DNA of 64,000 nt from Opitutales bacterium (GTDB lineage Bacteria > Verrucomicrobiota > Verrucomicrobiia > Opitutales > UBA953): the NCBI GenBank assembly GCA_030725715.1, contig JANRFG010000006.1, positions 38,947 to 102,946 of the forward strand, in the 5' to 3' direction. Positions 9,912 to 13,149 of the stretch are shown piece by piece; position 1 is the first letter of the stretch; the number at the start of each line of letters is the position of its first letter. A program made the translations under genes and the position numbers. The notes beneath the pieces are model-generated. The model saw only the letters and a program-made list of their open reading frames with translations. It ran no database searches and was not told the DNA's origin.

Positions 9912-10054
9912 GACAGCGGTGGACGATGGGACGGCCGTCGGATGAGGCGAGGGGAAAGGCGGCTCGGCCGGGTCGAAAACGGCTCCTTTTGAGCGAAATC
10001 CGCCCTTTTCTTGTTTGCCATGCCTGCCCACGGGGGTTCGCATTGGCTCCTCTT

Positions 10055-11551
10055 ATGCAATCCGACATTGGTCTCATCGGTCTGGCCGTCATGGGTCAGA
10101 ACCTCGCCCTCAACATCGCCGACCACGGCTTCGCGATCTCGGTCTACAACCGCACGACCGCCAAGACCGACGAGTTCGTGAAGGAAAACCCGAACACCCC
10201 GGGCAAGCTGACCGGCTGCCCCACCATGAAGGACTTCGCGGCCTCCCTGAAGAAGCCCCGCAAGGCCGTCATCCTCGTCAAGGCCGGCGGCCCGACCGAC
10301 GCCGTGATCAACGAGCTCGCCGCGGTCTTCGAGCCGGGCGACATCATCATCGACGGCGGCAACGCCCTCTGGACCGACACCATCCGCCGCGAACGCGAAC
10401 TCAAGGCCAAGGGCCTCCGCTTCATCGGCTCCGGCGTCTCCGGCGGCGAAGAAGGCGCCCGTTTCGGACCGTCCCTCATGCCCGGTGGCGACCCCGCCGC
10501 CTGGGCCGAGCTCAAGCCCATCTGGGAAGCCGTCGCCTCCAAGGTCGATGCCGTCACCGGCGTCGAACTCACCGGCGCGACCCCCGGCAAGCCCATCAAG
10601 GGCGGCGTCCCCTGCGTGGCCCACATCGGCCCCGACGGCGCCGGCCACTACGTGAAGATGGTCCACAACGGCATCGAGTACGGCGACATGCAGATGATCT
10701 GCGAAGCCTACGACCTCATGCGCGGCCTCCTGGGCATGACCCCGGACGAGATCGGCTCCACCTTCGAAGAATGGAACAAGGGCGACCTGAACTCCTTCCT
10801 CATCGAGATCACCGCCAAGGTGCTCAAGCAGAAGGACCCTGAGACCGGCGTGCCGCTGGTCGACGTCATCCTCGACACCGCCGGCCAGAAGGGCACGGGC
10901 AAGTGGACGAGCGCCAACGCCCTCGACATGGGCGTCGCCGCCCCGACCATCGCCGAAGCCGTCTTCGCCCGCTGCCTCTCCGCCGTGAAGGACGAGCGCG
11001 TCAAGGCCGCCAAGGTCCTCCGCGGCCCGAAGCGCGCGATGACGAATCCCGACAAGGCCAAGGTCATCGAACAGATCCGGGACGCCCTCTACTGCTCCAA
11101 GATCTGCTCCTACGCCCAGGGCTTCCAGCTCATGCGCGAGGCCCAGAACGAGTACAAGTGGAAGCTCAACTTCGGCGAGATCGCCCAGATCTGGCGCGGC
11201 GGTTGCATCATCCGCGCGAGCTTCCTGCAGAAGATCACCGAAGCCTTCGCCAAGAAGCGCTCGCTGGATAACCTGCTCCTCGACCCGTACTTCAAGAAGA
11301 CCGTCAAGAAGGCCCAGAAGAACTGGCGCAAGGTCATCGCCCTCGCGGTGAAGCACGGCATCCCCGTGCCGACCCTCGGTTCGGCGCTCTCGTACTTCGA
11401 CTCGTACCGCACCGAAGACCTCCCGCAGAACCTGCTCCAGGGTCAGCGCGACTTCTTCGGCGCCCACACCTACGAGCGCAAGGACAAGCCCCGCGGCGAG
11501 TTCTTCCACATCGACTGGCCGGATCCCAAGCGCCCGCAGATCAAGGCCTGA
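10055..11551 (+). CDS. gnd: 6-Phosphogluconate dehydrogenase, decarboxylating
   Basis: Oxidatively decarboxylates 6-phosphogluconate to ribulose 5-phosphate with NADP+ in the pentose phosphate pathway. The 498-residue protein has the Rossmann start [13 protein letters not shown], the signature [17 protein letters not shown], and the catalytic Lys/Asn region [16 protein letters not shown]. It is some 25-30 residues longer than E. coli Gnd (468). The ATG at 10055 lacks a Shine-Dalgarno sequence (the leader is TTGGCTCCTCTT). Codons are strongly C-ending, as in the atp operon, suggesting high expression. A strong terminator follows 20 nt after the stop. Confidence 0.95.
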
Positions 11552-11570: not shown

Positions 11571-11602
11571 AAAGGGCGTCCGCAAGGACGCCCTTCTTCT
11601 TT
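11571..11602 (+). terminator. Rho-independent terminator of gnd
   Basis: A perfect 10-bp stem AAGGGCGTCC / GGACGCCCTT with a GCAA tetraloop is followed by CTTCTTT. It lies 20 nt after the gnd stop. Confidence 0.9.
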
Positions 11603-11642
11603 GCGCGCATAGGTCAGACCTCACGCCTCACGCCTACCCATC

Positions 11643-11764
11643 GGTAGGGTCAGCACTGCGTGCTGACCTAGTCGCATCTTTTACAATGAGTAGCACACTA
11701 GAATGCCAAACGCGGCGGCGCCAGCACCCATCACCCTAGGTCAGCACGCAGTGCTGACCCTACC
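11643..11764. repeat. REPIN-like doublet: two inverted GTAG-flanked palindromes
   Basis: Two 29-bp elements at 11643-11671 and 11736-11764 are perfect inverted copies of each other, separated by 64 bp. Each begins (reading inward) with GGTAG, followed by an imperfect palindrome GGTCAGCAC-TGC-GTGCTGACC. A GTAG tetranucleotide in front of a short palindrome, present twice in opposite orientation, is the layout of REPINs mobilised by RAYT transposases. No RAYT gene is in this window. The element fills the convergent gap between gnd and the TolC-like gene. Confidence 0.8.
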
Positions 11765-11772
11765 AAGGAAAG

Positions 11773-13149
11773 TCACTGGGCGGACCAACCGCCGCCCGTG
11801 GCCGCGGCGAGGCGCACGGCGACCTGCCGGCGTTCCCACACGACCATCGAAAGCGTGCGCGCGGCCAGCGCTTCGTCGCGGCGCGCGAGCGTGAGCTCGT
11901 TCTCGTTGGCGAGGCCGGCCTTTCGGCGGGCTTCGGCGTTGGCAAGGCGGGAGCGCACGGCGGCGAGCACGCGGGCGGTGAGTTCTTCCTGGAGCGCGAG
12001 TTCGCGGAGATCGGCGAGCGCGTCCTCGACCTCACGGAAGGCGCCGAGCACGGCCTTGGTCCATTCGGCGCCGGAGCCGTCGATCCGCGCGCGCGCGGCC
12101 TCGAGGTTCGCTTCGCGACGACCCGCATCGAAGATGGGGAGGTCGATCGCAGGAGTGAGGCTCCAGAAACCGGCGGCACCGCGGCCGATCTGCGAAGCCG
12201 GGTCGGCCTGCCAGCCGGCCTGGCCGGTCAACGTGACGGAAGGATAGAAATCCGCGCGAGCCGCGCCTTCGCGGGAGACCGCGGCGTCGAGACGCGCGGC
12301 GGCGGCGGCGAGGTCGGGACGACGCAGCAGGAGCTCGGACGGCACGCCCGCGCCGAAGCCGGGCATCGTGGCGACGCCTTGGGCGACCGGGAGGCTTTCG
12401 CCGGGAGCGGCGCCGATGAGCGCGCGCAGCGCGTTCTCCGCGGCGGCGAGGCGACGGCGTCCGAGGCCTTCGTCGACCTTGGCCTGCGCGGCGGCGAGGC
12501 GCGCGGAGGAGAGCGGATCGGAGTCGATCAGGCCGGCGGCGACGGTCTGCTCGACGAGTTCCATCTCGCGGAAGCGCGTGGCGAATTCGGTCTCGAGGAA
12601 AGCGAGCTGCTCACGGGCGCCGCGGACGGCGAACCAGAGACGGGCGACTTCGGCGGACAAGGCGAGGTCGGCCTGCGCGGCGGTGAACTTCGCGGCGCGG
12701 ACGTCCGCTTCGGCGGCCTGCGACTTCGCGGCCTCACGGCCCCAGATATCGAGTTCCCACGAAGCCTTGGCGGCGACGGCGGTGACATCCGTACGGCGCG
12801 GGATGCCCGGAGGGAAACGTCCGTTGGCGACGGAAATACGGGAAGCCTCCTGGCCGGCGGCGAGGGAGAGCGCGGGCTGGTCACCGGCATCCGCGGCGCG
12901 GAGCAAGGCGACGGCTTCGCGCTGACGCGCGCGGGCGAGCGCGAGGTCGGGGCTCCCCTTGCGGGCGCGGGCGAGGAGATCGAGCAGCGCAGGGTCGGCG
13001 AACGCTTCGGCCCACTTCGCGTCCGCGACGACGCCGGCCTGCGAGAACGCGGCGGGCGCGGTCGGCGCGGACGGCCTGACCGCCGGATCGTGCGCGCAGC
13101 CCGCGAGCGCGAGCGCCGCGAGCAGGAACGACTTATTTGCCCGGCGCAT
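11773..13149 (-). CDS. TolC/NodT-family outer-membrane efflux lipoprotein
   Basis: The outer-membrane channel of the tripartite exporter encoded upstream. The 458-residue protein starts with a lipoprotein signal ending in the lipobox LAGC (Cys about residue 18). It contains two OEP repeats rich in Ala coiled-coil helices (about residues 60-240 and 265-450), with the family motif LLLRRPDLAAAAARLDAA and DFYPSVTLTGQAGW. It overlaps the adaptor gene by 17 nt, so it is the last gene of the operon. Substrate is unknown. Confidence 0.88.
   Translation of the reverse strand: MRRANKSFLLAALALAGCAHDPAVRPSAPTAPAAFSQAGVVADAKWAEAFADPALLDLLARARKGSPDLALARARQREAVALLRAADAGDQPALSLAAGQEASRISVANGRFPPGIPRRTDVTAVAAKASWELDIWGREAAKSQAAEADVRAAKFTAAQADLALSAEVARLWFAVRGAREQLAFLETEFATRFREMELVEQTVAAGLIDSDPLSSARLAAAQAKVDEGLGRRRLAAAENALRALIGAAPGESLPVAQGVATMPGFGAGVPSELLLRRPDLAAAAARLDAAVSREGAARADFYPSVTLTGQAGWQADPASQIGRGAAGFWSLTPAIDLPIFDAGRREANLEAARARIDGSGAEWTKAVLGAFREVEDALADLRELALQEELTARVLAAVRSRLANAEARRKAGLANENELTLARRDEALAARTLSMVVWERRQVAVRLAAATGGGWSAQ

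Follow-up and report, generated by a model that had tools for sequence, protein, structure and literature searches.

The window, by which we mean the whole stretch of 64,000 nucleotides that was analysed, carries a short palindromic element at 11643-11764 in the intergenic space between the convergent 3' ends of two genes. To its left lies a gene for 6-phosphogluconate dehydrogenase (6PGD) on the forward strand (9926-11551 from the start of the open reading frame, with the methionine at 10055 as the likelier start), which is followed on the same strand by a rho-independent-type terminator at 11572-11595. To its right lies a gene for an outer-membrane efflux protein (OEP/TolC-like) on the reverse strand (11773-13149). 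The terminator is conserved in relatives without the element and is therefore not part of it. The 35 bp that adjoin the element on the left (AGGTCAG...CCTACCC, 11608-11642), which were delimited by eye and are missing from the empty sites, possibly represent a decayed older REP.

The element comprises two arms of 29 nt with the sequence GGTAGGGTCAGCACTGCGTGCTGACCTAG, REP copy 1 on the forward strand (11643-11671) and the inverted REP copy 2 on the reverse strand (11736-11764), separated by a spacer of 64 bp (11672-11735). Among perfect inverted repeats of the window with arms no more than 200 bp apart, these 29 nt rank first, and the maximum in 40 first-order Markov shuffles of the window was 16 nt. 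The inner palindrome GGTCAGCACNNNGTGCTGACC was found, with up to 3 mismatches allowed, at only two sites in the window, both of them in the element (chance expectation 0.06). Each arm alone is also a palindrome, G-GTAG-G-GTCAGCAC-TGC-GTGCTGAC-CTAG, in which a GTAG foot (11644-11647 in copy 1) and one extra G precede an 8-bp stem (GTCAGCAC/GTGCTGAC) closed by the loop TGC and followed by CTAG; both arms have the arrangement of a GTAG REP, namely G-GTAG-G 5' of a short palindrome with a stem of 8-9 bp and a 3-nt loop. The two GTAG feet point outward, giving the head-to-head doublet of inverted REPs that characterizes a REPIN. As single-stranded DNA the whole element was predicted to fold into one long hairpin (-40.2 kcal/mol, z = -9.2), and a search of Rfam returned no family match for the element region. 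An earlier note on this DNA had described two perfect 29-bp inverted copies around 64 bp, each a GTAG-led palindrome, placed behind a terminator and between convergent genes; the coordinates, the 100% complementarity of the arms and the position were all confirmed.

The genome is a 1.93-Mb draft of 37 contigs with a completeness of 95%, in which the sequence around the matches was read. The palindrome of the element, here called T type (GTAGGGTCAGCAC), has 18 exact copies in it, REP copy 1 being one of them, and none was obtained with the control. The 13-mer core with at most one mismatch occurs 81 times (4 for the reversed control), and the pattern GGTAGGG...CCTA gave 76 matches, mostly REP palindromes (7 for the reversed control), so that the T-type palindrome is present in many dispersed copies, as in REPINs. 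Several sister palindromes were also identified, including A (GACAGCAC, 37 copies), the GATGCGAT type (16), G (10), Tg (8) and less frequent others; of these counts, all but those of A and T are limited to the sequence read around matches. The subtypes share GGTAGGG, and the differences in their stems are paired (GACAGCAC/GTGCTGTC, GTCAGCAC/GTGCTGAC, GGCAGCAC/GTGCTGCC and GTCGGCAC/GTGCCGAC), which indicates that the hairpin rather than its letters is conserved. Eight of the 18 T copies lie in head-to-head pairs and the remaining ones are single or in mosaics.

Such arms bear on the possibility that the element is a MITE of a conventional DDE insertion sequence, which would move as double-stranded DNA by its 29-bp terminal inverted repeats. 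A MITE would likewise have a short non-coding centre enclosed by perfect terminal inverted repeats, but each arm here is a GTAG-footed palindrome that also occurs singly throughout the genome, and arms of this palindrome family flank RAYT genes in relatives, which makes a MITE extremely improbable.

Three other features of the REPs in this genome were recorded. Head-to-tail mosaics of differing REP types have a period of 38 bp, made up of a 28-bp REP and a 10-nt linker (C15:88827-88891, C15:99301-99365, C8:183-245 and C24:1843-1905). The palindrome GATGCGATGACATCGCATCC is present 16 times (e.g. C17:95-119) and its RAYT partner was seen only in a relative (L061, G064); this type is a second REP population without its RAYT in the draft. 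The motif TGYMTYGR is enriched directly 5' of GGTAG for several REP types; as an example, at least 7 of its 8 positions match in 7 of the 17 T-type REPs that have no REP just upstream and in 4 of the 7 such G-type REPs (background 0.5%). It is perhaps a target or cutting site common to different RAYTs.

The history of the site was read from 29 relatives in which the pair of 6PGD and efflux genes is conserved. The junction is without any REP in 27 of them, with a gap of 47-79 bp, and these element-free junctions include the two nearest relatives by identity of the efflux gene (98% and 95%). The junction of two more distant relatives (L156 and L157; G028 and G001) retains the end of a T-type REP, approximately its last 20 bp, with a similar short flank after it. 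This half-REP remnant, ACACGCAGTGCTGACCCTGCCAA and a variant of it, lies just downstream of the 6PGD gene and implies at least one occupation of the site outside this species. One old insertion that most lines have lost or two insertions may lie behind this, and transfer by recombination or a repeated target may also account for it. The 64-bp spacer of the element has no other occurrence in its own genome or in the 54 congeners, and copying of the doublet as one unit is thereby ruled out within the sampled genomes.

The same comparison bears on whether the hairpin is a regulatory structure kept by the host for its function, either as a second terminator or as an RNA-stabilising 3' end of the efflux transcript. 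Its position downstream of both convergent genes and the very stable predicted fold of the efflux-strand RNA (-79.4 kcal/mol, z = -8.7) would suit such a role, which we nevertheless consider improbable, since the empty junctions in most relatives, the two nearest included, indicate that the hairpin is not needed there, and the palindrome is also dispersed at other sites of the genome. No T-run follows the hairpin, and for this reason, together with its absence in relatives, the second-terminator reading was rejected.

A search of the genome with the NF047646 model (REP-associated tyrosine transposase) revealed two RAYT genes, one on contig C27 (163 aa, scored at 70.9 and at 71.6 bits, the latter with 6e-20) and one on contig C16 (151 aa, 67.7 bits). 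Both are slightly below the curated cut-off of 80 bits, which is an annotation rule and not a biological definition; congeneric RAYTs reach 85 bits, so the lower scores reflect divergence within the family. With Pfam Y1_Tnp alone, one RAYT was detected, below the cut-off of that model, and the second was recovered by NF047646. The C27 RAYT matched the structure of E. coli TnpA-REP (4er8) at 4e-10, and a Y1 transposase fold is predicted for these proteins. The C27 gene is bracketed by two inverted A-type palindromes, with its stop codon at the edge of one, and the C16 gene is flanked by another palindrome, GTAGGGCACGAACGTAGTCGTGCCCCTAC, so that both resident RAYTs are associated with sister palindromes and not with the T type. 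A T-clade RAYT was not found in the draft, the best matches being the two RAYTs already described (47%), and this absence is weak evidence because draft assemblies often lose genes that lie between identical repeats.

RAYTs were identified in 36 of the 55 genomes of the genus, and the REP core was found in 28 of 37 genomes of the genus and gave one match in total among 20 genomes of other families. HUH, WQ and YxxxNP, that is, the HUH motif with a single catalytic tyrosine, are conserved in each of the 49 RAYTs, and 48 of the 49 have WQ(8)R, the pattern of the residues W94, Q95 and R104 with which E. coli TnpA-REP contacts GTAG (PMC6006769, PMC8266576). Flanks were read for 67 transposase frames, from which approximately 15 RAYT/palindrome pairs were distinguished by eye in the genus. 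Four RAYTs, each from a different relative (L073, L079, L094 and L102), are bracketed by T and Tg palindromes and form one clade (support 100/99.9); in L073 and L094 a 91-bp T/Tg REPIN with an identical spacer is present in one copy on each side of the RAYT gene. When the palindrome types were placed as labels (A, G, T, X and other; 43 labelled RAYTs) on the RAYT tree, 4 changes were required, which is the minimum for five labels, compared with 15-21 in 300 shuffles. Between the A, G, T and X palindrome clades, the identity of RAYTs is only 43-57%.

Copy numbers were compared with RAYT presence, with p-values that are only indicative because the genomes are related. A-type REPs average 22.7 in genomes with an A-clade RAYT and 5.8 in those without (p = 9e-5). 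For the T type the means are 6.0 and 3.7 (p = 0.09, four RAYT-bearing drafts), which shows no clear dependence, and a tracking of T copy number by the presence of the T RAYT is thus unsupported.

Some side observations were made on these genes and genomes. In L032:3925-4416, L073 and L094 the RAYT reading frame ends within the downstream REP or at its edge, the stop being the TAG of CTAG or GTAG. When named genomes were scanned with the C27 RAYT, five relatives were recovered, four from uncultured or strain-level Opitutae and one from a genome labelled Akkermansia; in this last, a MAG labelled Akkermansia muciniphila (L134, CALQLO010000040.1), the RAYT is 78% identical to the Opitutae one, and the label is probably wrong. 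From the sample codes in the records of relatives and general knowledge, we infer a freshwater habitat for the genus.

The T-type REPs could also be moved by the resident A-clade RAYT instead of a T-clade enzyme. An A-clade RAYT is present in the genome and a T-clade one was not found, and the A and T palindromes have GTAGG, the stem length and most of the stem in common. Against such cross-mobilisation, no A-, G-, T- or X-clade RAYT among the 43 labelled rows has the palindrome of another clade at its flanks, the loops, on which group-3 RAYTs decisively depend (PMC8266576), differ (CAC and TGC), and the T RAYT could be missing merely because repeat-flanked genes drop out of drafts. We therefore regard movement by the A-clade enzyme as unlikely, although less so than the regulatory hairpin or the MITE.

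Taken together, the element is very probably a REPIN, a non-autonomous mobile element of approximately 120 bp with two inverted GTAG REPs that is moved by a RAYT, and a RAYT is almost certainly what moved this palindrome around the genome. This reading, which the earlier note had put forward, is supported by the repeat structure, the compensatory subtypes, the RAYT genes, the copy number, the strict correspondence of RAYT clade and palindrome and the empty sites in relatives; the note had named a single copy or the lack of a RAYT as evidence against it, and the genome holds 18 exact copies, 81 with at most one mismatch, and two RAYT genes. As to the RAYT flanked by the same palindrome that the note had expected, the two RAYTs of the draft are flanked by sister palindromes, and T-flanked RAYTs were seen only in the four relatives. 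RAYTs of E. coli, Stenotrophomonas and Marinomonas bind the single-stranded GTAG hairpin, read its foot, stem and loop, cut at an adjacent CT or CA and join the ends (PMC8266576). All the parts that this requires are present in the genus. In a single-stranded region every REP by itself, or the 29-bp inverted repeat as a whole, would fold into a hairpin, which the RAYT, an HUH/Y1 single-strand transposase, would recognise by its GTAG foot, stem and loop, and the catalytic tyrosine of the enzyme would cut beside the hairpin and join it elsewhere. This cutting and joining, and any present-day mobility, are inferred. The putative mover is the T-clade RAYT known from four congeneric genomes between T and Tg palindromes, a lineage that would have inserted the REPIN as single-stranded DNA. 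At its landing site, with the 6PGD terminator on one side and the 3' end of the efflux gene on the other, the element would do little harm. It probably makes up the 3'-terminal part of the efflux transcript, in which it may fold into a stable hairpin with a putative effect on that RNA.

The T-type REPIN is possibly now orphaned. A wider picture, in which approximately 15 diverged and strictly co-evolved RAYT/palindrome pairs coexist with several REP populations, T included, that persist at high copy after loss of their RAYT, either frozen or sustained by non-cognate RAYTs or interspecies exchange, is offered tentatively and may well not hold. The genus offers favourable natural material for the study of RAYT specificity, with many closely related RAYT clades whose palindromes differ by a few paired bases and the loop. 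The residues that determine specificity could be read off from clades with matched palindromes and tested, and it could be asked whether a REP population survives the loss of its RAYT.

REPINs were defined in 2011 in Pseudomonas fluorescens SBW25 (Bertels and Rainey, PMC3116915). The present element has in common with them the inverted REP doublet that folds as one hairpin and, for this copy, the intergenic position, and several REP groups here likewise have a RAYT of their own. The palindrome sequence and the host phylum are different, and, unlike in SBW25, the T copies are mostly outside doublets and many REPs lie in head-to-tail mosaics of mixed types. The remark of the earlier note that REPINs are less described in Verrucomicrobiota needs qualification, as GTAG REPs had already been reported there in 2013: according to Di Nocera et al. 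(PMC3733652), several families with repeat-specific REPtrons were found in a genome set that included the verrucomicrobium Opitutus terrae, which was highly enriched. The O. terrae families (GTAG-17, -19 and -20 being named) agree with the present ones in phylum, class, GTAG foot, several families per genome, repeat-specific REPtrons and head-to-head dimers, a likeness at the level of description, and the present genus lay outside that survey. The group 3 TnpA-REP/REP duos of S. maltophilia and Marinomonas (PMC8266576) resemble the present system in the short near-perfect palindrome, the GTAG foot, the short loop and the size of the RAYT, a likeness in features of genes and repeats, and differ in that one extra unpaired G follows GTAG here. 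A REPIN with GTAG REPs is thus of a known kind and the element itself is ordinary, while the number of RAYT/palindrome pairs in one genus and the head-to-tail mosaics are mildly notable.
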